Shown: one piece after another, positions 10,671 through 51,850 of the stretch
Position numbering within the stretch: position 1 is the stretch's first letter
Layout of the letters: each line of letters starts with the position of its first letter
NCBI GenBank assembly: GCA_008375315.1
Contig: CP032507.1
Coordinates: 62,001 to 126,000 of the forward strand
Reading direction: 5' to 3'
Length of the DNA stretch: 64,000 nucleotides
Origin: Ectothiorhodospiraceae bacterium BW-2
GTDB lineage: Bacteria > Pseudomonadota > Gammaproteobacteria > Thiohalomonadales > Thiohalomonadaceae
Notes under the pieces: model-generated
Seen by the model: only the letters and a program-made list of their open reading frames with translations
What the model was told of the DNA's origin: nothing
Databases searched by the model: none
Made by a program: the position numbers and the translations under genes

Positions 10671-10836
10671 TCAACTTAACAAGCTCTCAATTGTCTCAAG
10701 CATAGAATGAGAATCAACATAATCAATCGCAATAGGCCAATAACTAGTTCCCGTTTGAAGTATTAGCGATGGAAAAGAGTCAACACCTAACGCCCGACTT
10801 TGAGCAATTTCTCCCCGCAGCGTAGCATCCCCTGAG
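10671..10836 (-). pseudogene. C-terminal fragment of IS-interrupted DsbA-family protein
   Basis: Reading the minus strand inward from the IS left end at 10836 gives 54 residues. They include GEIAQSRALGVDSFPSLIL, the typical cis-Pro-containing C-terminal segment of the DsbA/FrnE-like thioredoxin fold, and end at TGA 10671-10673. It continues in phase from the fragment at 12712-13190 when the IS is removed. It has no start of its own. Confidence 0.8.
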
Positions 10837-10909
10837 TGTCAAGATACCCTGAGACCACCCCTGATGAGAAATGAATGTAGAATCAGGGGGGCAACAGAGG
10901 AGATACACG

Positions 10910-11314
10910 ATGCCCAAAGATACTACCGTTTTACCCTCCAACGAGGTTACCGACCCCGATGAAGAGAAGCGCTCCTACCGCAAATTTAGTGAGGAAGAGA
11001 AGCTTCGGATCCTAGCAGAAGCAGAGCAGTGCAAGGAGCCGGGTCAGCTAGGCGAGCTGCTGCGCAAAGAGCAGATCTACAGCTCCCATCTGACCAAATG
11101 GCGCCGACAACTGCAAGCACAGGGGCAGGCTGGCCTGAAAGGGAAACAGAGTGGTCGCAAACCGAGCCTAGACAAGCGAGATAAGGAGATAGAGCGTTTA
11201 AAGAAGGAAATTCAGCGTCTTAGCCAACGGTTACAGCAGACCGAAGGGGTGATTGCGCTCCAAAAAAAAGCCTTCAGCTTATTGGAGCAGATGAACACAG
11301 AGATAAGCTTATGA
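10910..11314 (+). CDS. IS3-family transposase OrfA
   Basis: 134 aa from ATG 10910, chosen because AGAGGAG lies 7 nt upstream; an ATG at 10871 has no RBS. The N-terminal half is the helix-turn-helix (FSEEEKLRILAEAE... LGELLRKEQIYSSHLTKWRRQ) that binds the IS ends. The C-terminal half is a leucine-zipper-like coiled coil (DKEIERLKKEIQRLSQRLQQ). The stop overlaps the orfB start as ATGA (11311-11314), so orfB is probably made by coupled re-initiation rather than by the -1 frameshift common in this family. Confidence 0.9.
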   Translation: MPKDTTVLPSNEVTDPDEEKRSYRKFSEEEKLRILAEAEQCKEPGQLGELLRKEQIYSSHLTKWRRQLQAQGQAGLKGKQSGRKPSLDKRDKEIERLKKEIQRLSQRLQQTEGVIALQKKAFSLLEQMNTEISL

Positions 11315-12360
11315 GATTAGTTGAAAAAGAGTGCCCCAGTTCGGTGAGCATAAGAGCCGCTTGCGATAGCCTAGCGCTCTCGCGTGCAGGCTACTACCGC
11401 CGACAGGCTCCGGTTGTCTCCCCCCGAGCGAGCCTTCCAAGACCCGTCGCAGCCAATGCGCTGAGTGAGGCAGAGAGGCAAGCCGTTCTGGGGCTTTTGA
11501 ACAGCGAACGATTCTATGACCAACCTCCGGCAGAGATCTATGCTAGCCTGCTGGATGAAGGGAAATATTACTGTTCAATCAGTACGATGTATCGGATCCT
11601 TCGTGCTAATCAACAGACGGGAGAGCGGCGAGCTCAAAAACCGGCCAAATCACACGCTATCCCCCGATTACGGGCGACCCGCCCGAATGAGGTTTGGACA
11701 TGGGATATCACTAAGCTTCCCACCACAGAGCAGGGTAACTTCTTGAATCTCTATGTGGTGATGGATCTCTACAGCCGTTTTATTGTGGCTTGGATGGTCT
11801 CAAGGAAGGAGAATAGTGAGCTCTCCAAGCTGTTAATCAGTGACGCAGCGGCTCGCTATCGGGTCGCGCTCAGTGGCTTAACACTGCATCAGGATAGAGG
11901 TGTGCCGATGACCGCCAGAGGCTATCTCGACTTGATGGCCGAACTGGGGATCACCTGCTCCCACAGCCGTCCACGAGTCAGTAACGACAATCCGTTTAGC
12001 GAGAGTCAATTTAAAACACTCAAGCAACAACCCGATTATCCTCAACGATTGACAGGAGTTGACCATGCCAGAATATGGTTTAGTGACTATGTTGACTGGT
12101 ACTGTTTCCACCACCACCATCGAGGGATTGCGTGGTTCACTCCAGAGCAGGTATTTACCGGTCGTTACAAGGAGGTTAGCGAGCAGCGTGAACAGGCGCT
12201 GAAGCAGGCCTATCAGCAGCATCCGAAACGCTTTATTCATGGTGAGCCCAAGGTTAAGCAACCCCCTACTGAGGTATGGATTAACCCCGCTCTACCGGAG
12301 GAGGGGGTGGGGTCGCTGGAGGTCAACTATCCAACCCTGAATAGAGCGAAGGAGAGATGA
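11311..12360 (+). CDS. IS3-family transposase OrfB (DDE integrase)
   Basis: 349 aa with a complete rve/DDE core: D132 (WTWDIT), D195 (LHQDRG) and E231 (PFSESQFKTLK). The D195-E231 interval is the 35 residues of the DD(35)E signature. The N-terminus has the HTH_21-like region (YYCSISTMYRILRANQ). The frame is intact, so the element may still be active. It overlaps orfA by 4 bp. Confidence 0.92.
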   Translation: MRLVEKECPSSVSIRAACDSLALSRAGYYRRQAPVVSPRASLPRPVAANALSEAERQAVLGLLNSERFYDQPPAEIYASLLDEGKYYCSISTMYRILRANQQTGERRAQKPAKSHAIPRLRATRPNEVWTWDITKLPTTEQGNFLNLYVVMDLYSRFIVAWMVSRKENSELSKLLISDAAARYRVALSGLTLHQDRGVPMTARGYLDLMAELGITCSHSRPRVSNDNPFSESQFKTLKQQPDYPQRLTGVDHARIWFSDYVDWYCFHHHHRGIAWFTPEQVFTGRYKEVSEQREQALKQAYQQHPKRFIHGEPKVKQPPTEVWINPALPEEGVGSLEVNYPTLNRAKER

Positions 12361-12436
12361 GTGACGGTGCCGCTAGTGGGTCTATCGTCGATGGCTTTAG
12401 CCGGTTGTGGTGGCTGAATGACAGAGCGTTATCCAT

Positions 12437-12481
12437 AGCCCGCCCCCCGGAGACCCCCTTATTATCGTAGGGGGGCGGGCT
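12437..12481. terminator. Strong hairpin in the IS tail
   Basis: Perfect 12-bp arms AGCCCGCCCCCC (12437-12448) and GGGGGGCGGGCT (12470-12481) with a 21-nt loop, 77 bp after the orfB stop. There is no T run, so it would be a weak intrinsic terminator. It could equally block read-through into the transposase or serve as an IS structural signal. The rest of the IS tail (12361-12691) shows no gene. Confidence 0.5.
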
Positions 12482-12711
12482 GTGGGTAACGCGGTGCAGG
12501 AGGGAGGTTCCTAGATTAGGGGTTGCAGTTCGCCTTGCAGCTCCCCCTTGCTGAAGGGCTTGGCTCTTGCGGCAAAGGGCCATGAGGGTCATGTTCGCTC
12601 CTTGTTGCGTCATGACTCAACATAGGCGAAATTTGCCGGTGAGGGCAGTGGCAATCACCGGCTAGATTTAGAGCTTTATTTTTTTAACAACTGGTCTCAA
12701 ATTACTTGACA

Positions 12712-13190
12712 GCTTCCGCATCCGTTATCTCCGATTCTAAATGATACTGAAATCGATCCAGCTCTATTCCTAACTCATCAGCTAGAGCGACTAACACAGT
12801 GATCTCTGAAGGGTTACGAGCTTGTTGATAATAGGCTCTCTGTATCGCCGCAGTCATCAGTTGATCATATTCGTCCCCCTGCTCTCTCGCTGCAATCACA
12901 GCTCGACAGGCAGGATAGGTAGAGCGTTTGGGAGTATTTTGACACCAAAAATCAAAATTGAATTTTTTTGAAGGGATTTTTTGCTCAATTAGCCGCCAAT
13001 TAGCTTGAATCTGCTGCTGTATTATTAATGTCATCGGTTGATGGTTATCAGCAGCTAGCCCCCCTAGTAAACGGCGAAGCTCAATACTCTCATCAAGCTG
13101 AGAGATGAGAGCTTGGTAAGTCTCACTAAATCCCCAACACCAACTACACATCGGATCATGAATATAGCATAGTGAATATCTCTTGTTCAT
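12712..13190 (-). pseudogene. DsbA-family oxidoreductase, N-terminal fragment, interrupted by IS
   Basis: 159 codons precede the IS right end; the frame then reads two codons into the IS and stops at 12702. The thioredoxin-fold active site is CSWC in YIHDPMCSWCWGFSETY, as in the FrnE/DsbA-like family of thiol oxidoreductases or isomerases. The helical insert (QQQIQANW... YPACRAVIAA) is also typical. Joining it to 10671-10836 restores a 213-aa frame without adding or losing a base, the normal family length. The insertion removes the cis-Pro region, so the product is almost certainly inactive. Confidence 0.85.
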
Positions 13191-29590: not shown

Positions 29591-29599
29591 TTATCCACA
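29591..29599 (+). promoter_or_regulatory. Consensus DnaA box
   Basis: TTATCCACA, a perfect match to the strong DnaA-box consensus, about 400 bp before the first iteron. A one-mismatch copy (ATATCCACA on the minus strand) lies at 31212-31220, upstream of the initiator gene. Together with the iterons this supports an origin. Confidence 0.6.
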
Positions 29600-29904
29600 C
29601 GAATTCTTGGACAGTTACATCCTATTAACGACGGCGAGAAAGCCCATCTCTTCTCTTCTCCCCTCTCTTGTACCCATCCCGTACTCCAGCGGCTTCCATC
29701 GCACGCAGTAACGGCAGGCAACGGGTCTGTCACTTTCGTTCCATTAAACTTAACGGTGCAATTATAGAGGGCTCTAAAAATTAATCAAGCAACTGTTAAT
29801 TGCTCTGCTACGATGAAGCAATGGAGCCGTTGTGAATTAAACTTGGGGAGCAAGGTGACTCTTCCAATGGGCAAAAATATCTATTTATCCATCCTCAAAC
29901 GAAG

Positions 29905-29993
29905 TGCGAGAGTTTTTTTATTTATTATTTTAATCTTTTTATACTTTTACCCTCATGTAACCTATTGATTTTATTTTGTTTTTCGGGGGTAAA
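29905..29993. other. AT-rich stretch next to the iterons (candidate unwinding element)
   Basis: The region is nearly all A and T with runs such as tttttttatttatt and ttttattttgttttt, and abuts the first iteron at 29994. This is where a replication origin would be expected to melt. The wider gap 29492-29993 holds the DnaA box and no convincing gene. Confidence 0.55.
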
Positions 29994-30447
29994 TGGGAGC
30001 AATCTATAACGAAATTGGGAGCAATCTATAACGAACTGGGAGCAATCTATAAATAAATGGGAGCAATCTATAACAGTATTGGGAGCAATCTATAACAAAG
30101 TGGGAGCAATCTATAACGGGGTTAATTTGCGATATAGAACTGGGAACAATTTATAACGGAGATTGGGTTATGTGGCGCTAAATGGGAGCAATCTATAACG
30201 GGGTGAGTCTGTCCGGTGGTAAATGGGAGCAATCTATAACGGGGTGAGTCTGTTCGGTGGTAAATGGGAGCAATTTATAACGGGGGTGAGTCTGTCCGGT
30301 GGTAAATGGGAGCAATCTATAACGGGAGTGGGGCTGTCCGGTAGCCAATGGGAGCAATTTATAACGGGGGTGAGGCCGTCCGGTAGTAAATGGGAGCAAT
30401 TTATAACGGGGGCGAGGCTCCGGTGGTAAATGGGAGCAATTTATAAC
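29994..30447 (+). repeat. Origin iterons: 14 copies of TGGGAGCAATCTATAAC
   Basis: Direct repeats start at 29994, 30016, 30037, 30058, 30080, 30101, 30141, 30183, 30224, 30265, 30307, 30349, 30391 and 30431. Copies 1-6 step by 21-22 bp (two helical turns). Copies 7-14 step by 40-42 bp (four turns), and from copy 8 on are separated by a repeated GC-rich spacer containing GTCCGGT. Copies 7, 10, 12, 13 and 14 carry T instead of C (AATTTATAAC), and copy 7 also has GAACA. All point the same way and stay on one helix face, as binding sites for a Rep_3 initiator should. Confidence 0.9.
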
Positions 30448-31283
30448 ACTGTATGTGGGTACTTTGCAGGTTGTCGTTGGCACCACTAAGTTCTCGACTC
30501 TTTAGGGGAATGGGCAAACAAAGCGACAGTTGATGGTTACAGGGTGTGGTTAATTAAGTTAAATTTATCAGTGACTTATTTATTATTTAGTGGATCTGGC
30601 GGTGTGGGGCTGTGTGGTGTGAGGCGTTATTAAATTTGTCGAAAGAGTCTCGGAGGTGAGGGCTAGTTTTAAACTACCATCGAGCCGCATTGGCTAAAGA
30701 GCGTTGCTACGGGTAGCGAAATCTCTCTGGATAACTCCATTGTCAACCTGCTTACTAGCTAGGAGAGTGATATCCGGCATAGAGGTGGCGTGAGCCCAAC
30801 ACAGGTACTTTAGAGAGGTGACGGATTATGACTACTTGCCCGTGGTTAACTTTTATCGAAATATAGGGTTGAGAGATAGATAATTTATTGGGTTTGTCTA
30901 AAGTTATTTAGGGAAAGCTAATATAAAGAGCTGTCATCCATTAGATAAGTTGCGGAAATGTATTAGCTGCTATGATGTGAGTTAGGTAGATTGAGTTGTT
31001 TACGCTGAGCTTTATGAGAATTGATTGAAGAGACTTCTAAAATCTACTTCCTTACCATCAATCCCTCTCTTTGCGGGGTTTTTCTTCTCTCTAGCTCTCT
31101 CTTCTCCAGTTAGAGGTGGGAAGAGGGAGTCTCTCCTTGTGGGGAAGATTTGAAGTGGCGGGATAAAAAGAGATGAAATTGTTTTGCTTTTTTCTTATTT
31201 TTGTGTCAAGTTGTGGATATAGGAGGTGGGGGTTGTTGTTATTCCCATTTGGTATGGTTTGACTGTTTAGAGCGATATAGCTA
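30448..31283. other. Spacer between iterons and initiator gene
   Basis: 836 bp with no convincing gene. It contains a possible weak terminator (ATCCC...GGGGTTTTT, about 31067-31084) and a near-consensus DnaA box at 31212. The rep promoter should lie in its last 100 bp. The distance from iterons to rep is long for a plasmid, where they are usually adjacent. Confidence 0.5.
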
Positions 31284-32165
31284 ATGAGTTTACCGTATAT
31301 TAGTGATGCTGTTATTTCGAATGCTCTTGTGACTGCTAGCTATAAAATGTCAGTTCCGGAGAAGCGTATTATTGCGCTAGCAATATCCCAAATTGGTATG
31401 GATCAAGATGTGACCGATGAAGATGTATATCGTGTTTCTAATTTCCAATATAGTAAGATGTCAGGGGTCAGTCGTTCAATGGCTTGGTTGGAGATTAAAG
31501 AAGCTACAACAAGATTGCTAGATAGAAAGGTGTCTATAGAAAGAGGGAAAGATACTATGGTTTTTGTTTTTGTGCAGCAAGCAATCTTTGAGGAAAATAG
31601 TAGTATTTCAATAAGATTTAGCAAGCCTATTTTGCCATTTATTTCTCAGCTAAAGAAAAACTTCACCAAGCTTGATGTAAGAGAGTTGGTTTCTTTTTCT
31701 GGTTTTTATGCGATGAGACTTTACGAAATGATTATGCAATATAAAAACATTGGTAAATGTAATATAACGGTTTTGCAATTTAGGAAATCATTGGGTATTG
31801 ATGAGGGTAAGTATGTAAATGGAAAAGATTTCAGGCGGTATATTATCGAAAGACCGTTGAATGAGATCAATAATAAAACAAAATATAATATTAGTTATAA
31901 GCCGATAAAATTAGGGCGGAAAATTAATTCGTATGAGTTTGTTATAAGAGAAAAAGAGATTGTTGATAATGGAGATTTTTTAGGCGTTCAGGTTGATAAA
32001 AATAGCAGAAAACCAAGTTTTCCGCCATTGCGCTGGCTTGAAGCACATAGTGAGTTGGCACCGCCTGGGAAAACCTATAGCGAAATAAAATCCAATCCAA
32101 ATAAAAAAATTATTGATGCTTGGGAGCGTGAAAATGATTGGTTGAGATGGGTTAGGGTGAAATAG
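31284..32165 (+). CDS. Replication initiation protein (Rep_3 / RepB family)
   Basis: 293 aa. The N-terminus (VISNALVTASYKMSVPEKRIIALAISQI) is the hallmark of Rep_3 initiators such as F RepE and pPS10 RepA. It is followed by the first winged helix. The second winged-helix domain includes FYAMRLYEMIMQYKN, VLQFRKSLGI and FRRYIIERPLNEINNKTKYNISYKPIK. These proteins bind iterons as monomers to open the origin and often repress their own gene as dimers. The codon use is much more AT-rich than the flanking metabolic genes. It lies downstream of 14 iterons and upstream of a palindrome array and parAB, so this is a full plasmid-type replication module. Confidence 0.92.
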   Translation: MSLPYISDAVISNALVTASYKMSVPEKRIIALAISQIGMDQDVTDEDVYRVSNFQYSKMSGVSRSMAWLEIKEATTRLLDRKVSIERGKDTMVFVFVQQAIFEENSSISIRFSKPILPFISQLKKNFTKLDVRELVSFSGFYAMRLYEMIMQYKNIGKCNITVLQFRKSLGIDEGKYVNGKDFRRYIIERPLNEINNKTKYNISYKPIKLGRKINSYEFVIREKEIVDNGDFLGVQVDKNSRKPSFPPLRWLEAHSELAPPGKTYSEIKSNPNKKIIDAWERENDWLRWVRVK

Positions 32166-33349
32166 ATTGTTGACAGTGAATGTAGTCTATTAAAGTTAAG
32201 CTATGCAAGCATAATATAGTGATGCATAAAAATTATATTTCCGCCCTCCCCTATAGCCATGAGATGGTGATGTATGGTCGGAATTTTGAGCTAAAATGAC
32301 TAATTTTTTTTCAAATGGTATGTGATGGCTAGTGGGTGCCTAGAAAATATCTACGAGTAGATTTTTTAAAAGGCACATTTTCATGTTGGGTTACTTTTGC
32401 CCGATTTGTGGTTGCGTAGGGGTACCTCCCCTTGGGTTCCCCTATGATGGGTGCCCGATTTGCATGTGCCCATATTATGATAGTTGGACGGCATCAGGGC
32501 AGGCACAGGGGCCTGCCCCTACGATGATAACGATTAACCGCTGATGGAGCTTCAAGCTAGTGGTTCTGTTTAATGCCTAACCTGACGAAACAGTGAATAA
32601 GACTGGGGTAGAAAATAGAAAATATCTACGAGTAGATTTTTTAAAAGGCACACATTCTTGCCGAGTTACCTCTTAATAGATGAGCTATTTTTGATGCCTA
32701 GCATTGGGTGTGGTAGAAAATATCTACGAGTAGATTTTTTAAAAGGCATATTTTCATGTTGGGTTACTTTTGCCCGATTTATGGTTGCGTAGGGGTACCC
32801 TCCTGTGGGGTGGCTATGGTGGGTTCCCGATTTATATGTGCCCATATTATGTTTGGGCGGCATCAGGGCAGGCACAGGGGCCTGCCCCTACGATGATAAC
32901 GATCAACCGCCGATGGAGCTTCAAGTTGGTGGTTCTATTTAATGCCTAACCTGACGAAACAGCGAATAAGACTGGGGTAGAAAATCTACGAGTAGATTTT
33001 TTAAAAGGCACACATTCTTGCCGAGTTACCTCTTAATAGATGAGCTATTTTTGATGCCTAGCATTGGGTGTGGTAGAAAATATCTACGAGTAGATTTTTT
33101 AAAAGGCACATTTTCATGTTGGGTTACTTTTGCCCGATTTGTGGTTGCGTAGGGGCACCCCCCCTTGGGTTCCCCTATGATGGGTTCCCGATTTGCATGT
33201 GCCCATATTATGATGGTTGGACGGCATCAGGGCAGGCACAGGGGCCTGCCCCTACGATGATAACGATCAACCGCCGATGGAGCTTCAAGTTGGTGGTTCT
33301 ATTTAATGCCTAACCTGACGAAACAGCGAATAAGACTGGGGTAGAAAAT

Positions 33350-35281
33350 ATCTACGAGTAGATTTTTTAAAAGGCACATTTTCATGTTGGGTTACTTTTG
33401 CCCGATTTATGGTTGCGTAGGGGTACCCCCCCTTGGGTTCCCCTATGATGGGTTCCCGATTTGCATGTGCCCATATTATGATGGTTGGACGGCATCAGGG
33501 TAGGCACAGGGGCCTGCCCCTACAATGATAACGATCAACCGCCGATGGAGCTTCAAGCTAGTGGTTCTGTTTAATGCCTAACCTGACGAAACAATGAGCA
33601 AGGTTGGGGTAGAAAATAGAAAATATCTACGAGTAGATTTTTTAAAAGGCACATTTTTCATGTTGGGTTACTTTTGCCTGATTTGTGGTTGCGTAGGGGC
33701 ACCCCCCTGTGGGGGTGGCTATGGCGGGTTCCCGATTTATATGTGCCCATATTATGCTTGGTCGGCATCAGTGCAGGCACAGGGGCCTGCCCCTACGATG
33801 ATAACGATTAACCGCCGATGGAGCTTCAAGCTAGTGGTTCTGTTTAATGCCTAACCTGACGAAACAGTGAATAAGACTGGGGTAGAAAATAGAAAATATC
33901 TACGAGTAGATTTTTTAAAAGGCACACATTCTTGCCGAGTTACCTCTTAATAGATGAGCTATTTTTGATGCCTAGCATTGGGTGTGGTAGAAAATATCTA
34001 CGAGTAGATTTTTTAAAAGGCATATTTTCATGTTGGGTTACTTTTGCCCGATTTGTGGTTGCGTAGGGGCACCCCCCCCCTTGTGTTCCCCTATGATGGG
34101 TGCCCGATTTGCATGTGCCCATATTATGATGGTTGGACGGCATCAGGGCAGGCACAGGGGCCTGCCCCTACGATGATAACGATCAACCGCCGATGGAGCT
34201 TCAAGTTGGCGGTTCTGTTTAATGCCTAACCTGACGAAACAGTGAATAAGACTGGGGTAGAAAATATCTACGAGTAGATTTTTTAAAAGGCACACATTCT
34301 TGCCGAGTTACCTCTTAATAGATGAGCTATTTTTGATGCCTAGCATTGGGTGTGGTAGAAAATATCTACGAGTAGATTTTTTAAAAGGCACATTTTCATG
34401 TTGGGTTACTTTTGCCCGATTTATGGTTGCGTAGGGGTACCCCCCCCTTGGGTTCCCCTATGATGGGTTCCCGATTTGCATGTGCCCATATTATGATGGT
34501 TGGACGGCATCAGGGTAGGCACAGGGGCCTGCGCCTACGATGATAACGATCAACCGCCGATGGAGCTTCAAGCTAGTGGTTCTGTTTAATGCCTAACCTG
34601 ACGAAACAATGAGCAAGGTTGGGGTAGAAAATAGAAAATATCTACGAGTAGATTTTTTAAAAGGCACATTTTTCATGTTGGGTTACTTTTGCCTGATTTG
34701 TGGTTGCGTAGGGGCACCCCCCTGTGGGGGTGGCTATGGCGGGTTCCCGATTTATATGTGCCCATATTATGCTTGGGCGGCATCAGTGCAGGCACAGGGG
34801 CCTGCCCCTACGATGATAACGATCAACCGCCGATGGAGCTTCAAGCTAGTGGTTCTGTTTAATGCCTAACCTGACGAAACAGCGAATAAGACTGGGGTAG
34901 AAAATATCTACGAGTAGATTTTTTAAAAGGCACACATTCTTGCCGAGTTACCTCTTAATAGATGAGCTATTTTTGATGCCTAGCATTGGGTGTGGTAGAA
35001 AATATCTACGAGTAGATTTTTTAAAAGGCACATTTTCATGTTGGGTTACTTTTGCCCGATTTGTGGTTGCGTAGGGGCACCCCCCCTGTGGGGAGCTATG
35101 GCGGGTTCCCGATTTATATGTGCCCATATTATGCTTGGGCGGCATCAGGGCAGGCACAGGGGCCTGCCCCTACGATGATAACGATCAACCGCCGATGGAG
35201 CTTCAAGTTGGTGGTTCTATTTAATGCCTAACCTGACGAAACAGCGAATAAGACTGGGGTAGAAAATATCTACGAGTAGAT
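33350..35281. repeat. Higher-order tandem duplication of about 1 kb inside the array
   Basis: Five successive sites from 33350 (33350, 33625, 33898, 33996, 34266) recur at 34364, 34640, 34906, 35004 and 35268, offsets of 1014, 1015, 1008, 1008 and 1002 bp. Rare variants also recur at the same places, for example ACAATGAGCAAGGTTGGGG before the second site and ATTTTTCATG after it. The array therefore grew partly by block duplication. Confidence 0.75.
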
Positions 35282-35745
35282 TTTTTAAAAGGCACATTTT
35301 CATGTTGGGTTACTTTTGCCCGATTTATGGTTGCGTAGGGGTACCCCCCCCCTTGGGTTCCCCTATGATGGGTTCCCGATTTGCATGTGCCCATATTATG
35401 ATGGTTGGACGGCATCAGGGCAGGCACAGGGGCCTGCCCCTACGATGATAACGATTAACCGCCGATGGAGCTTCAAGCTAGTGGTTCTGTTTAATGCCTA
35501 ACCTGACGAAACGATGAACAAGGCTGGGGGTAGAAAATATCTACGGGTAGATTTTTTTCATGGCTGGTTTTCATTGCTACCACATCTTCCTGTTTGAAGG
35601 GATATTTTATACTTTTCTCAGTTTAGAGAACGATTAGGCTTCTAGTTCAGTAGTTAAAATCTCATGACTTGATGGGTGTAATCTATTTAACGCTAACTAC
35701 TATCACTCTAGCTTGCATGTTAAAACAGAATTCTTGCCCTAAAAA

Positions 35746-35759
35746 ATCTACGCGTAGAT
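35746..35759. promoter_or_regulatory. Perfect palindrome ATCTACGCGTAGAT, parA-proximal site
   Basis: This is the only fully symmetrical member of the 17 sites and the one nearest parA. It stands outside the repeated units, in unique sequence. It is a good candidate for the original, highest-affinity site of the partition protein, or for a par operator. Confidence 0.6.
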
Positions 35760-35902
35760 ATTCACAGGTGTCAGGATAATCCCTATAATTCATGGGGTGT
35801 AGTTTGCAATGATTATTGATCATAACTAATTCTTGATGAGAAATGGATGGGATATGGAGGATAGGAACTCTATGAGTTCAGATGCTTACATGGAGTTGAT
35901 GG

Positions 35903-35974
35903 GAGCGATAGGTTTGAGAGAAGATTTTTATGGGTGACTCACGCTAGTTTGTTGTGCTAACGCTCCTATCGCTC
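35903..35974. repeat. Long inverted repeat upstream of parA
   Basis: GAGCGATAGG (35903-35912) and CCTATCGCTC (35965-35974) are perfect 10-bp arms around 52 nt. Another short inverted repeat, ATTAAC-N6-GTTAAT (36184-36201), sits 13 bp before the parA ATG and could be an operator. The gap 35760-36213 has no gene. Confidence 0.5.
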
Positions 35975-36213
35975 TCCCTCGGGAGTTGATCTAATGTTGG
36001 TAGTAAAAATTGATGAAGCTTGATTGTTTAGAAAATATAGCTACGCGAAAAAATAAAAAATATCTAGTGCAGATAGTAATTTAACAGATAGTTAAGTTTT
36101 TATTCGTAATCCAATTTTTAGAAAATTCTTGAGATTAATTGATGATCATGATATGGTGACATAAAATTACATGGCGCATGTATATTAACTAAATCGTTAA
36201 TCAGGTAGTTTTA

Positions 36214-37089
36214 ATGAAAGTATTAACCATCGCAAATAATAAAGGAGGGGTTGGAAAGACCACCCTTTCAAGGGTCTTAGGGGAAGGTTTGTCATTTCTT
36301 CATGGTAAAAGAGTGTTATTGATTGATTCAGATCCTCAAGCCAACTTAACTAGTTGTTATCTGGATATGCGTTATCAAGCAGGAACGGGGGAGAGTGGCA
36401 TTTTCCCTCCACCACACCCAGATTATGATCCCGATGATCAGGAGTGGAGTAGGGATTATCTTACCCTGGCCGATTTATATGTTGATAACGGTACTAACTG
36501 GTATCCAACTGAGACAGCTGGTATATCAATTATTGCATCCGATCCTGAAGGGATTAATGAGGAAACTGTCGCAAAATATTATAACAAGATGGGATATAAA
36601 AATTTTATTGGTCTATTGGGATTATGGTTACGCGAGATTGTAGCACCCACAAATAAATTTGATGTTGTTATTATCGATACTCCCCCTAGTAGAGGACCGT
36701 TAACAAAGTCAGCATTTTCTGCGTCAACGCATGTTTTATCACCAATGACAGTCGATAATTTTGCAACGGCAGGTGTAGGAAGCTTGAACTCATTAATTGA
36801 TCTCGAAAATCAGAGTCGAGAAGAAAATCCCATTAAATTTATTGGCATTTTATTGACCCAATACCAAAAAAGTTTGCGCCAACACCAGCAAATAAGAGAC
36901 ACCATCTACGACGCTAAAGCGTTAAAAGATGTGATGCTAACTGAAATTATGCATAGTTGGGGAGGGTACAAGACATCAACGGTCAAAGGTTGGGAATATT
37001 CTGTTTTTGCTCGGCAACCTAAAGATAGGGTTAGGGTTGAAGCCACAAATATCGTTAAAATTGTTAAGGAGGGATTGTTTGATGGCTAA
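36214..37089 (+). CDS. parA: ParA family partition ATPase
   Basis: 291 aa. It starts MKVLTIANNKGGVGKTTLSRV with a deviant Walker A (KGGVGKTT, residues 10-17), then DSDPQANLT and, about residue 150, VVIIDTPPSRGPLTKSA. There is no N-terminal helix-turn-helix, so autoregulation, if any, must come from ParB or the third gene. These ATPases bind nucleoid DNA and move ParB-bound centromeres. It contains extra residues around 55-90 (PPPHPDYDPDDQEW) compared with small ParAs. The stop overlaps parB by 8 bp. Confidence 0.95.
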   Translation: MKVLTIANNKGGVGKTTLSRVLGEGLSFLHGKRVLLIDSDPQANLTSCYLDMRYQAGTGESGIFPPPHPDYDPDDQEWSRDYLTLADLYVDNGTNWYPTETAGISIIASDPEGINEETVAKYYNKMGYKNFIGLLGLWLREIVAPTNKFDVVIIDTPPSRGPLTKSAFSASTHVLSPMTVDNFATAGVGSLNSLIDLENQSREENPIKFIGILLTQYQKSLRQHQQIRDTIYDAKALKDVMLTEIMHSWGGYKTSTVKGWEYSVFARQPKDRVRVEATNIVKIVKEGLFDG

Positions 37090-38071
37090 GGGTCTGAATT
37101 TTAACATGGGTGGGGTAGCTAACTTTGCACGCGAAGCGACAAAAGAGAGGGAGAAAGACAAAGAGAGATTAGTTAATATACCAGTTAACAAAATAGCTAT
37201 CGATCCTGATCAACCTAGAACTCTCACATTTAATTTAGATGATTTGAGAGAGTTCGTGAAAAATGATGAATCAGGGAGAGATGAAAAATGGAGTAATCAA
37301 CAAAAAGAGGATATGGAGCAGTTAATTCTGCTTTCAGAAAATATAAAAAAAATTGGGCTAAAAATGCCTGTTTTAGCCTATCAAGAAGACGATGATAGCT
37401 ATCGCCTTATATCTGGAGAACGGCGATTAATGGCGCACCGTTTTAATAATGCCGCCACTATTGCAGCAACCGTTTGTCGGAAACCGGATATTGAAAAAGA
37501 AGCAGACTCACTCGGGCTAGAGATTGACGATAAAAATAGTTCAATATTGCTAGAGCTTGCGATAAAAGATATTCAGGTAAGTGAGAATTTGCAGCGTGCT
37601 GATCTATCTTTTCTTGATTATTTTCAGTTAATAAAAAAATATGATTCAATTTATAAGGCGCTGGGAAAAAAATTTACTGGTGAAATATATTCAGAAAGGG
37701 TAAATTTTAAGCGTGCCTACGCCTATCGATATTATCGCTTGCTAACAAAAGGTAGTGCTGAGTTGCATGATAAGATTGAACAGGGGGTTATTGCTACCAT
37801 GACTGAGGCAATGGCGGCACTCAATGATGAGTTAAATAGGGCGAATAAATCATCTAAAAATGAGGGAAAAATATCTTCAATATCTAAACATAAAAATCCA
37901 TTTACTTTAGGGGCAAATAAACAGAAACAGATTAAGGTGGCTGTTAAGGTAATTGAGAAATTTAAAGACGAATTGGGCATCGTTTTAGAAGATAAAAATG
38001 ATATTAAATGTGTTCAAGAAGCTTGGGCTCTTGTTTTGAAAAAATTAACAGATGATAGCGAAGAAATATAG
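37082..38071 (+). CDS. parB: ParB/RepB/Spo0J family partition protein
   Basis: 329 aa from ATG 37082, inside the parA end (overlap ATGGCTAA); preceded by AAGGAGGG. A longer in-frame start at 37007 would overlap parA heavily and is less likely. The N-terminal ParB/sulfiredoxin-like domain shows VNKIAIDPDQPRTL and the CTPase/GERR motif SGERRLMAHRF. A central HTH region (IQVSENLQRADLSFLDYFQLIKKYDSIYKALGKKF) follows. A lysine-rich C-terminal region would dimerise. It probably binds the palindrome array upstream. AT-rich like rep and parA. Confidence 0.92.
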   Translation: MAKGLNFNMGGVANFAREATKEREKDKERLVNIPVNKIAIDPDQPRTLTFNLDDLREFVKNDESGRDEKWSNQQKEDMEQLILLSENIKKIGLKMPVLAYQEDDDSYRLISGERRLMAHRFNNAATIAATVCRKPDIEKEADSLGLEIDDKNSSILLELAIKDIQVSENLQRADLSFLDYFQLIKKYDSIYKALGKKFTGEIYSERVNFKRAYAYRYYRLLTKGSAELHDKIEQGVIATMTEAMAALNDELNRANKSSKNEGKISSISKHKNPFTLGANKQKQIKVAVKVIEKFKDELGIVLEDKNDIKCVQEAWALVLKKLTDDSEEI

Positions 38072-38094
38072 GAAAATAGGGGTTAAAATATTCT

Positions 38095-38577
38095 GTGAAG
38101 AAACTAATATCTCCACCTAAACAAGTTTCTTATAAACGAGTTAATATTCAGCTTCTTTCATCTCATAAAAAGGCTATGAAGGCAAAGATGAAATTGTCTG
38201 GCTTAGGAAAAAGCGAATGGGTTTTGCAATCAATTCAGTCTCTATTTAATGACAATGCTATTGTTGATTTGGTTTTAGATGCTGAAGTTATGACTCGGTT
38301 TGATGAGAAGGATAATGTCCTTGTCCCTGTGGGATTGCACCAAGAGATGATTCGGATGCTTGACGCCATCACTATATTGGTTCTTCAGGCAAGATTTCAT
38401 CCTCGTGGACGAGTTACAAAGTCACAAGTACCCCAAATTATTCACCATAGCATAACGGATGATCAAGACTATCGAACAGAGAGAATACCAACAGTGAGTG
38501 GATTTATTCGCTCTGCGATTATCAAGGGGCTTTATAGCGATGTTAGTTTTGATAACAGTCATTTCAGCTTGTGTTAG
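38095..38577 (+). CDS. Third partition-operon gene, ribbon-helix-helix-like protein
   Basis: 160 aa from GTG 38095, 23 bp after parB, so co-transcribed. I know no named family. Two parts look like MetJ/Arc folds: the N-terminal YKRVNIQLLSSHKKAMKAK...GLGKSEWVLQSIQSLF (strand then two helices), and the C-terminal IPTVSGFIRSAIIKGL. A hydrophobic helix (MIRMLDAITILVLQA) lies between. By position and shape it could be a second DNA-binding partition or copy-control protein. That is inference; no experimental relative is known to me. Confidence 0.6.
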   Translation: MKKLISPPKQVSYKRVNIQLLSSHKKAMKAKMKLSGLGKSEWVLQSIQSLFNDNAIVDLVLDAEVMTRFDEKDNVLVPVGLHQEMIRMLDAITILVLQARFHPRGRVTKSQVPQIIHHSITDDQDYRTERIPTVSGFIRSAIIKGLYSDVSFDNSHFSLC

Positions 38578-38699: not shown

Positions 38700-39302
38700 T
38701 CAGACAAATAGATTTACATCGGCCTCAAGCGCTTTCGGTAAAAAGGTCGCGGCACCGACCCAGTCGCTTATACCGTCGATGAACTGGGTTTTTTGGTAGT
38801 CAAATAAATCGACTGTCATTTGACAGGCGATCATTCGCACATCTGCTTCGATACATAGCTCGCGCAGTTCTCTAATCGAGGCAACGCCTTTATTGGTAAG
38901 AGTTTGGTTCATCATCGAAGTTGCCATCGATTCGAATCCTGGTACTACTGACATAATCGCATTGGGTATCGGAATGGTTTTGCCACGAATCCAGTTGGGT
39001 CCGAGCGGTAGTTTCATCGGCATTGCTGGATTGCCTAGTGGCGAAATTCGCAATTGCAACTCTTTTTTTAGCAGTTCTAGTCCATAGAAGGTAAAGAAAA
39101 TCGAGACATCCCAGCCTAATGCGGTTGCAGTGGAAGCCAGAATAAACGGTGGATAGGCCATATCGAGTGTGCCTTTGGTGGCGATGATGGTCATTGACGG
39201 GGTTTTGTTGGCTTGGTGTTCGGCCATTTTTTCGGCAAAACGGTTATCAAACCAGCTATTTAAATCTTCGATTTGTATATTAGGTTGTGCGATTGCGTTC
39301 AT
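38700..39302 (-). CDS. DsrE/DsrF/DrsH-like family protein (DsrE2 type)
   Basis: 200 aa. The family carries sulfane sulfur on a conserved Cys in sulfur-relay systems. Visible features are SMTIIATKGTLDMAYPPFILASTATALGWDVSIFFTF (first strand and hydrophobic hairpin), the internal PGFESMATSMMN region and the C-terminal MIACQMTVDLFDY with the conserved Cys. The start overlaps the tusA stop as ATGA. TusA plus DsrE2 next to each other is the usual cluster in sulfur oxidisers, where a rhodanese gene is often also present; I see none here. Confidence 0.9.
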   Translation of the reverse strand: MNAIAQPNIQIEDLNSWFDNRFAEKMAEHQANKTPSMTIIATKGTLDMAYPPFILASTATALGWDVSIFFTFYGLELLKKELQLRISPLGNPAMPMKLPLGPNWIRGKTIPIPNAIMSVVPGFESMATSMMNQTLTNKGVASIRELRELCIEADVRMIACQMTVDLFDYQKTQFIDGISDWVGAATFLPKALEADVNLFV

Positions 39303-48702: not shown

Positions 48703-50082
48703 TCAAAGTCCTTCAGCTAGGCCGCTACTGCGTAGAATGCGGTTCTCAATACACTGTGCTAACACCTGTCTCTTAGCGGCAAACAGGGTAAAGCGTGATT
48801 TTGCCCGAGTTATCGCGGTATAGAGTAGCTCCCGCGTCAGTAATGGCGTGGTGTAGGGGGGTAATAGTAGCGCACAGTGGTCAAACTCAGAGCCTTGCGA
48901 TTTATGCACAGTGAGGGCGTAGCTACTCTCTACCTCCCCTAAACGGCTCGGTAATACCCACTGAATCTCTCGCTTTGTGCCGCTCTTTGGCAGGCGTTCA
49001 AAGGCGACTCTTAGCTGGCCATCGGCCCGTCGTAGGGTGATGCCGACATCGCCATTCATCAGGCCTAAAGCGTAGTTATTGCGCAGCACAATGACCGGTC
49101 GTCCCACATACCACTCATGGCCGCTAGCGACCCTATCTGCCTGCTGTAGCCAAGCTTTGATGTGGCGATTCATCTCACTGGCCCCCCACTCCCCCTCTTT
49201 GAGGGCACAGAGGAGTTGGAACTGGCGTAGCTGTTGTAGTAGCTGTCGCGCCTCCTCATCACCACTCCCTGTCACTGAGATGGTTTTTAGCCACCTCCCC
49301 ATCGCCTCAATGACGACTGTTTTTAGGGCGTTATCGTTGACTCGCTTAAGTTGTACCCAGCGCAGGGAGCTCTCCGCGCCCTCGCTCGCCCTAAGTTGCT
49401 GGAGGCTCTGCTCGATCTCACCGCGATTAACCGCCATAGCTAGCTGACCAATCGCACCGCCAAAGCGGTAGCTGTGGCGCAACATCACCGTGGCCTGATT
49501 GATGCGACTCCCCTCACCTTGCCAAGGGGTTAAATCGGCGGTGGTATAGGGTTGCATCTGTTTTAAGGTGGCGTCGTCGTACCCCCCCTGCTCAGCACCA
49601 CGGCAGAGCTCACCTAGCACCGCACCCGCTTCGACCGAGGCGAGTTGATCTTTATCACCTAGCAGAATCAGTCGCGCCTCTGGCCGCAGTGCCTGCATCA
49701 GCGCCGCCATCAGCTCTAAATCGACCATGGAGGCCTCATCGACCACCACCACATCTTCGACTAGCGGTCGGCCGGCGTGGTGGCGAAAGCTCTGGTGGTG
49801 TAGCTGTACGCCTAGCAGGCGATGTAGCGTCATAGCGCGGGTCGGTAGGTGGGCAGCCGATGAGGTGGGGAGCTGTGAGAGTGCCCCAACAATCGATTCG
49901 GTCAGTCGTGCGGTCGCTTTTCCGGTTGGCGCGGTTAGGGCGATAGTTAGTTTACCCTCGGCCTGCTGTTGTAGCGCCGCTAACAGCTTGGTGACTGTGG
50001 TAGTTTTGCCGGTGCCGGCACTGGCCTCTATCAGCCGAATGTTGTGCAGTGGAAAGGTAAGCGGATTGAGGGGGGAGGACAT
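48703..50082 (-). CDS. recD: RecB-RecD chimera (exonuclease V alpha subunit, truncated)
   Basis: 459 aa from ATG 50082 (TAATG overlap with recC). Residues 1-about 26 (LNPLTFPLHNIRLIEASAGTGKT is the clear part) are the N-terminus of RecB, not RecD. From the P-loop on, TTTVTKLLAALQQQ, IALTAPTGKATARLTESI, VVVDEASMVDLELM, GDKDQLASVEAGAVLGELC and the C-terminal ALTVHKSQGSEFDHCALLLP are RecD helicase motifs. The whole of RecB after its P-loop and RecD's N-terminal domain (about 150 residues) are missing. The join falls on the shared GTGKT codons (50002-50016). The helicase core may fold, but a RecBCD enzyme cannot form. An upstream in-frame start (50436) would run inside recC in another frame and is rejected. 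Confidence 0.85.
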   Translation of the reverse strand: MSSPLNPLTFPLHNIRLIEASAGTGKTTTVTKLLAALQQQAEGKLTIALTAPTGKATARLTESIVGALSQLPTSSAAHLPTRAMTLHRLLGVQLHHQSFRHHAGRPLVEDVVVVDEASMVDLELMAALMQALRPEARLILLGDKDQLASVEAGAVLGELCRGAEQGGYDDATLKQMQPYTTADLTPWQGEGSRINQATVMLRHSYRFGGAIGQLAMAVNRGEIEQSLQQLRASEGAESSLRWVQLKRVNDNALKTVVIEAMGRWLKTISVTGSGDEEARQLLQQLRQFQLLCALKEGEWGASEMNRHIKAWLQQADRVASGHEWYVGRPVIVLRNNYALGLMNGDVGITLRRADGQLRVAFERLPKSGTKREIQWVLPSRLGEVESSYALTVHKSQGSEFDHCALLLPPYTTPLLTRELLYTAITRAKSRFTLFAAKRQVLAQCIENRILRSSGLAEGL

Positions 50083-51683
50083 TAGCGCGCTCCTTCCGTT
50101 TGAGAGGGCGAGGGGTGCCACTGCCAAGGGGTCTCGACTAGGGGGCCATAGAGGTAGGCGGCCTGTTCGGCGAAGCCGGCTTTTAGCAGCGTCTCGAAGT
50201 CGGGGTAGTAGCGCTGTAGTGGCGGTGAGCTCTCCCGTTCGCCTGTCGTTTGGTAGCCCCCTTCGTAGAGCTCGCGACTGCTCTTCTCGATGGCAATTAA
50301 GAGCGGGTTGTGGCCCCGTTGACGCTGATCGGCTAGGGTGTAGCCGATATAGCGGTAATCGTTGTTGTCGATACGCCCGAAGACGGCATGAATGGCAGCG
50401 GCATAGTGGTGAATATCGGGCATCATCACCATACAATCACCCGGTTGCAGGGTTGGATCGGCGGCTAGATCACCAATCAGTCGATCTTGGAGAATCTCTA
50501 CCTCCCGTTGACGGGAGTGGGCGATGTGAAAAGTGACCGAGCGATCCTCCGCATCAAGTTGACGGGGGGGGGAGGGGAGGGGGCGCAGTTCGAGAATATC
50601 GCGCTGTAGCTGCTGTAGCAGGCTCCCCTCTCCCTCTGGCAACGGCTCATCAAAGAGATCGATCTGCTTAAACCACTGCTGGTAGTGCTCGGGATGGTCA
50701 AACTCCTGTAGATAGTTGATATAGTCGCGCCCCTGTTTGCCTAGTGAGGCGAGCAGAGGGGGGGCGTGGAGGTGGAGAGTATCGGGATCGAGCTCTAGCG
50801 GCACCCCCTCTCTTCGTTGCTGTCGCCAGCGTCGTTTGCGCACCTCATCTTTAAGCAGGGTAATATCGCCCCAGTAGTAGCGACAGGGGTTCAAAATGGT
50901 CATCAGCACCTGTCGTTGCGAACTCAGCGCCGCTAGCAGTTCAACACTCTGTTCGGGCAAGGTGGCGATACCAAAGACCACTAGCCGTTCAGGTAGCGCC
51001 TCGGGGTGGGCGATCTCTCCTTGTTGCAGTGCCTTAAACGCCTGTCGATGGACATCGGCCCGACTAGAGAAGGGCTGCACGGCTTCACGCAGCGCCATAT
51101 CGTCACGCAGGGCACGCCATAGCGCCGGCTGCCACCGCTGGGTTTCGGGAACCGCAACGCTTTTGCCACTCATATCGGGCAGGTTATCTCTACCTTGGCT
51201 CCACTCGTTGAGCCAGTCAGCGCGATAGACCTGATACTGGTCAAATAGATCGGCTAGGCGGAGGGCTAGATGGTAGGCTTTAAGCTGCTGTTCGTCGTGT
51301 TGCAGATAGCGGGCGATAGGGGCAAAGAGGGGGGCATGGATTAATGAGGGCAGTAGTTGCAAAATACGCCAGCTAAGATTGCCTTTATCGTAAGGGAGGT
51401 GCTTAGGGACGACAGGACCTAAGGCGGCTCGATAGAGCTGCCACACAAACTGGTTAGGCAGTTCAATCTCTACTCCGGCAGCCACGCCTGGGCCGTTAAA
51501 GTCGCGACTGGCCAGCGCCATCTTTAGCCACTGGGCGATGCCGTTGGACTGCACTAAGATGGTCTCTTTTGCCAGAGGAGCCACCGGCTGCTCTCTCATC
51601 CATTGAATGATTAGCTGTCGTAGCTGCTCCATATCGTTGCTGTAGATGATAGCCAGCCCGGGTTGGGGGAGAGTGTGTGGCAT
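50082..51683 (-). CDS. recC: RecC (exonuclease V gamma subunit) with large internal deletion
   Basis: 533 aa against the usual 1,050-1,150. The first about 465 residues are normal RecC: IIYSNDMEQLRQLI, VQSNGIAQWLKMALA, LVVFGIATLPEQSVELLAALS, and then YTLADQRQRGHNPLLIAIE. After that the protein jumps to a RecC C-terminal tail (SSRELYEGGYQTTGE... RYYPDFETLLKAGFAEQAAYLYGPL). About 550 residues, including the Chi-recognition nuclease-like fold and most RecB contacts, are gone, yet the frame is kept. It ends 1 bp into the next gene (TAATG). Confidence 0.85.
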   Translation of the reverse strand: MPHTLPQPGLAIIYSNDMEQLRQLIIQWMREQPVAPLAKETILVQSNGIAQWLKMALASRDFNGPGVAAGVEIELPNQFVWQLYRAALGPVVPKHLPYDKGNLSWRILQLLPSLIHAPLFAPIARYLQHDEQQLKAYHLALRLADLFDQYQVYRADWLNEWSQGRDNLPDMSGKSVAVPETQRWQPALWRALRDDMALREAVQPFSSRADVHRQAFKALQQGEIAHPEALPERLVVFGIATLPEQSVELLAALSSQRQVLMTILNPCRYYWGDITLLKDEVRKRRWRQQRREGVPLELDPDTLHLHAPPLLASLGKQGRDYINYLQEFDHPEHYQQWFKQIDLFDEPLPEGEGSLLQQLQRDILELRPLPSPPRQLDAEDRSVTFHIAHSRQREVEILQDRLIGDLAADPTLQPGDCMVMMPDIHHYAAAIHAVFGRIDNNDYRYIGYTLADQRQRGHNPLLIAIEKSSRELYEGGYQTTGERESSPPLQRYYPDFETLLKAGFAEQAAYLYGPLVETPWQWHPSPSQTEGAR

Positions 51684-51850
51684 CAATAACCCGACTTCAC
51701 GCTCTGCGCTATCCCTACTTTGTTCACCGCCATCGCTCCTCCTCTGTTATCTCACCGAGGCAGGATACCACACACTCTCCCTGAGTCGCTAATGCCGTTT
51801 AGGGTGACTTGCGGTGACAGTACGCTAACTAGACCTAGTCTATTAGGTCA

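Follow-up and report, generated by a model that had tools for sequence, protein, structure and literature searches.

Iteron plasmids of the Rep_3/RepE type, among them F and mini-F with their initiator RepE and the Acinetobacter plasmids with RepM, combine an initiator of two winged-helix domains with direct iterons, and carry an AT-rich tract and a DnaA box upstream of rep. When an iteron origin is carried passively on a chromosome, it is usually held off by handcuffing between Rep and iterons. Chromosomes with two active origins are nevertheless already known. The ori2 of Vibrio cholerae is active in strain NSCV1 and silent in NSCV2 (PMC6284228), both origins stay active in the fused dicentric chromosomes of Agrobacterium (PMC12153318), and ori-pHV4 of Haloferax volcanii is an active integrated plasmid origin (PMC7174701). 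In a Synechococcus dnaA mutant, replication has moved to an integrated plasmid (PMC7198777).

We analyzed a stretch of 64,000 nucleotides (the window, C1:62001-126000) in the genome of Ectothiorhodospiraceae bacterium BW-2, which is assembled as the single contig C1 (4,074,140 bp, 99.73% complete). The first-pass annotation had placed at window 29591-38577 a DnaA box, an AT-rich tract, iterons, a Rep_3 initiator gene, palindromes and a parA-parB-third gene operon, and all of these parts are present, on the same contig as dnaA. By its sequence, the locus is an intact second origin beside oriC on one molecule. In our reading, the main chromosome of this gammaproteobacterium captured from a low-copy iteron plasmid a core for replication and partition, which is usually silent and able to fire; to this reading we assign a probability of about two in three. 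An intact, mostly silent core is the most likely state, and its main rival is an active second origin. As in NSCV1 and NSCV2, one chromosome here carries oriC together with an intact iteron-type origin and its parAB; in those strains, however, a whole secondary chromosome has been fused (PMC6284228), whereas here a 9-kb core is recognizable and the initiator belongs to another family. The Agrobacterium fusions and Haloferax ori-pHV4 likewise place a plasmid-type origin (in Agrobacterium also a centromere) in a larger chromosome, with activity established there by marker frequency (PMC12153318, PMC7174701).

The upstream part of the core follows the layout of Rep_3/RepE plasmids. The DnaA box TTATCCACA (window 29591..29599, plus strand) is the sole perfect match within the 64-kb window, and an AT-rich tract apparent on direct reading of the sequence (29890..29993) adjoins the first iteron as a candidate unwinding element. 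The iteron TGGGAGCAATYTATAAC occurs in 14 direct copies on one strand (29994-30447), 12 of them exact and two with one mismatch. Six copies are spaced by 21-22 bp, or two helical turns (29994..30117, plus strand), and the other eight, a candidate copy-control set, by 40-42 bp, or about four turns (30141..30447, plus strand); across both phasing classes, all 14 face roughly the same side of the helix. No further copy was found outside the locus in the whole 4.07-Mb genome at up to two mismatches, the reversed pattern, used as a control, giving 0 forward matches and 1 reverse match.

Near these tandem, replicon-specific iterons lies rep (31284-32165, plus strand), which encodes an intact Rep_3/RepE-type initiator of 293 aa, identified by Pfam, by NCBIfam as RepM-like and by its PDB relationship to RepE. 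Both winged-helix domains are recognized (Rep3_N, 1e-29; Rep3_C, 6e-15), and the best solved relatives are the RepE-type initiators 2z9o and 1rep (E about 3e-14), with an alignment to RepE across residues 10-223. The relatives listed are plasmid initiators that are only about 31-37% identical to Rep; this divergence, the 14 iterons in two phasing classes and the chromosomal location set the core apart from described Rep_3/RepE plasmids. The gene occurs at a single locus in the genome, and relatives were found neither in viral contigs nor, by short patterns, in genome contigs. Rep_3 is present in 26 of 276 sampled genomes of the class, mostly fragmented assemblies in which cases may be missed, and this genome is the one among them with an intact Rep_3 on a chromosome-sized contig; the other initiators lie on small contigs or are themselves fragments.

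Between rep and parA extends a centromere-like array (32343..35762, no strand assigned) that holds, inside its repeat units, 17 copies of ATCTACGNGTAGAT, a candidate parS. The 14-bp palindrome (ATCTACG, then A, G or C, then GTAGAT) is found in 17 exact copies at window 32349-35759, as part of a more extensive repeat array whose units are spaced 264-375 bp apart. Elsewhere in the 4.07 Mb there is no exact copy, and the few matches with one mismatch do not outnumber those of a reversed-pattern control. Since the iteron and palindrome sets are both absent from the rest of the genome, their clustering is far beyond chance and private to the locus. A second palindrome, AGGGGCCTGCCCCT, alternates in nine copies with the candidate parS sites (window 32507-35441), and pieces of the array repeat unit are found also near C1:3.44 Mb. 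One 23-bp sequence of the array (window 35502-35524, and the corresponding end of other units) agrees base for base with the terminal inverted repeat of a different insertion sequence (IS) at C1:172702-174567, and the array may hence have grown from IS ends.

The array is followed by an operon of three genes on the plus strand. The first, parA (36214..37089), encodes an intact Walker-type partition ATPase of 291 aa (AAA_31, 1.9e-26); parB (37082..38071), best read from the ATG at 37082, encodes an intact protein of 329 aa with a ParB_N domain (1.3e-7); and the third gene (38095..38577) encodes a protein of 160 aa with a K-S-x-W motif, for which a single-sequence structure prediction (pLDDT 39.8) was not used. 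Walker ATPase and ParB_N protein in one operon, together with grouped palindromic sites specific to the locus, make up a ParABS-type system with a candidate centromere. Large gammaproteobacterial plasmids (73-278 kb) share the order parA-parB-small ORF, among them Thioalkalivibrio pTK9001 (240 kb), Xanthomonas pLM159.1 (201 kb), the Methylomonas sp. DH-1 plasmid (278 kb) and a Legionella longbeachae plasmid (74 kb), on which the position of the third gene is conserved. Their ParA proteins are 31% and their ParB proteins 22-28% identical to those of the core, and most of their third proteins share the K-S-x-W motif and are otherwise divergent. ParA relatives in viral contigs are distant, with 24-32% identity over long stretches. 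Two of these plasmids, those of Thioalkalivibrio and Methylomonas, have distinct palindrome families of their own grouped near par, which supports taking those of the core as its candidate centromere, where ParB would bind ATCTACGAGTAGAT. The palindrome sequence differs from those of the plasmids, and here it sits among densely packed repeats that span 3.4 kb.

The molecule that bears this core has the ordinary equipment of a main chromosome. The order dnaA-oriC-dnaN looks ordinary, with dnaA at C1:1,677,908-1,679,425, dnaA-dnaN spanning 1.678-1.680 Mb and, between dnaA and dnaN, a group of six DnaA boxes (at most one mismatch; 1.6794-1.6797 Mb). The nearest named relatives of DnaA are about 50-60% identical and almost all gammaproteobacterial. 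The GC-skew minimum (1.65 Mb) is near oriC and the maximum at about 3.19 Mb, which implies uneven replichores of about 1.5 and 2.6 Mb; the core, at a distance of 1.59 Mb from oriC, belongs to the longer of the two. The earlier suggestion that the core replaces oriC finds no support in a contig whose dnaA and oriC have a normal appearance and on which the skew minimum and a near-canonical chromosomal parS, adjoining dnaA at C1:1,688,527, fall together at 1.65-1.69 Mb. The chromosomal parAB genes, in the order rsmG-parA-parB, are at C1:1047073 (1.047 Mb), about 640 kb away from this parS, the only near-canonical one. A pattern search with up to three mismatches found no dif site, and no long ORF that would show the contig to be closed runs across the join of its ends.

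Base composition and edges bear on how the core came to lie there. The AT-richness reported for the core genes holds: GC3 averages 0.59 over the genome and is 0.31-0.33 in rep and the three genes of the par operon. These genes lie in a low-GC3 stretch of about C1:38.5-106.6 kb; comparable stretches occur elsewhere in the genome, and low GC3 alone therefore outlines no plasmid. Also as previously described, no boundary marks are seen: the window has no tRNA and no integrase, and no att-like repeat beyond chance was found at the edges of the core or of the low-GC3 block, which leaves the locus without the marks of an ICE, IME or prophage. The core does sit amid metabolic genes, as had been stated, but the recC named among its household neighbors is a decayed recC/recB/recD remnant (window 48703-51686); with the intact recCBD at C1:142974-151936, the genome holds two related copies, one of them degraded. 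Just downstream of the core, a second DsrE2 gene beside tusA (window 38700-39302) has an N-terminal extension, the other copy at C1:1094124 being of the usual family length, and C1:49576-52153 contains four tandem copies of a gene for a coiled-coil-like protein of 150-175 aa that starts MLAEEDISFIKNHLGRWLAEQ. PLSDB contained no DNA match to the core. Among the stretches read by eye we recognized neither transfer genes nor plasmid cargo and identified no junction, which counts against capture. For capture speak the plasmid-type relatives of Rep, the par operon shared with plasmids, the low GC3, the confinement of rep, iterons and palindromes to one locus and the normal oriC on the same contig; the proposal that a plasmid core was captured by the chromosome is thereby strengthened.

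Whether the captured core fires was approached through GC skew at fourfold-degenerate sites, split by gene strand and sampled genome-wide in 20-kb stretches (a sample of each arm), after removal of genes in repeated DNA. Scores were calibrated on the two arms of the same genome such that 0 denotes leftward and 1 rightward replication. To the right of the locus, C1:100.6-200 kb scores 0.73 (CI 0.59-0.89), toward rightward replication and as a firing origin would leave it, which counts against silence; the score is 0.27 at 0-91.5 kb, 0.19 at 200-300 kb and, past 400 kb, near 0 or negative. Other left-arm windows of 45 genes average 0.03 (sd 0.12), and no sampled left-arm stretch has a stronger rightward anomaly than the 100 kb that adjoin the locus on its right. 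A skew switch at the locus thus exists, and it is no proof of origin activity. Over the 26 kb beside the locus (100-126 kb), heptamers balanced in G and C disagree with the skew: their score is 0.40 there and 0.61 in the adjoining 126-200 kb, compared with 0.34 for the left and 0.66 for the right arm. According to the first-pass annotation, a silent integrated plasmid would show a normal oriC on the same molecule and neither a skew switch nor a coverage peak at the locus; the normal oriC is there, but so is a local skew switch, a mixed outcome that makes a silent integrated plasmid likely, not proven.

The skew block may instead be an inverted or imported, IS-rich defense island with no relation to the replicon, an explanation that competes only with the reading of the skew as origin activity and is compatible with plasmid capture. 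Its odds appear to us about even. The segment at 126-200 kb is IS-rich and contains restriction-modification and other defense-like genes (named by eye), together with six copies of a 1.89-kb IS, four of which have mismatched target duplications; rearrangement or import can on these grounds explain much of the block. The anomaly begins at the locus, however, and takes in 100-126 kb, which is free of that IS, and to the right of window 44.8 kb most genes are close to the genome average in GC3.

If the core were instead an active second origin, firing late in a good fraction of cells, its rightward fork would travel a distance of 100-200 kb until it met the fork from oriC, its leftward fork would continue to ter, and the longer replichore would be completed sooner. 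The skew step at the locus and its decay with distance (0.73, 0.19, about 0 or below) agree with such firing, as do the unequal replichores with the locus in the longer one, the intactness of all core parts and the precedents of NSCV1, the Agrobacterium fusions and ori-pHV4 (PMC6284228, PMC12153318, PMC7174701). Yet the left flank, which should be fully leftward, is weakened too (0.27), the heptamers are leftward-like at 100-126 kb, with no flip until the IS- and defense-rich 126-200 kb, and local skew minima are frequently not origins (PMC4403523). We consider an active origin unlikely on balance. The fuller picture, of a chromosome replicated from both oriC and the Rep_3 origin, with two ParABS systems whose different centromeres lie 1.6 Mb apart and a core that balances a lopsided chromosome, is if anything more doubtful.

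That a free plasmid and the chromosome were misjoined in assembly is conceivable, given at least 35 near-identical genome copies of the 1.89-kb IS, one of them at window 10826-12720, with 3-bp target duplications that are mismatched in 12 of 35 copies, a sign of recombination between copies. The copies nearest the core are nonetheless about 17 kb to its left and 35 kb to its right, the target duplications of the left one (C1:72.6 kb) match each other (CAT/CAT), and no repeat connects the two edges of the core; a misjoin is thus very improbable. The matching CAT/CAT also led us to reject a cointegrate formed through the obvious pair of flanking IS copies. One pair with swapped duplications (138.8 kb and 1536 kb) was taken as chance, both members adjoining a partial IS and no empty site being rebuilt. 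The chromid or secondary chromosome proposed earlier, with the iteron origin as its only origin, would account for plasmid-type replication genes among metabolic ones, but, barring a misassembly of the contig, we give it almost no credence since the same contig has an ordinary dnaA-oriC-dnaN with its box cluster, the skew minimum, parS and parAB, as well as hemA, lysA, tmRNA and tRNAs.

Under the preferred reading of a captured, mostly silent core, forks from oriC would copy the locus passively, and each fork passage would renew the iterons, whose pairing through Rep is expected to keep the origin from firing in most cells. Were oriC to fail or its fork to arrive late, the core may be able to fire: Rep, bound to the 14 iterons, would open the adjoining AT-rich tract with the help of DnaA and load the replisome, making a role as a back-up of oriC possible. 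The palindrome array, once covered by ParB, would be moved by ParA and would give the chromosome another ParB-bound site, at a distance of 1.59 Mb from oriC. Should the origin fire, this chromosome would offer a natural test of how bacteria tolerate two unrelated origins and two centromeres per chromosome, and of a plasmid core becoming a back-up origin. Should it be silent, the locus would be a ready example, comparable to ori2 in NSCV2, of an intact iteron origin silenced in nature.
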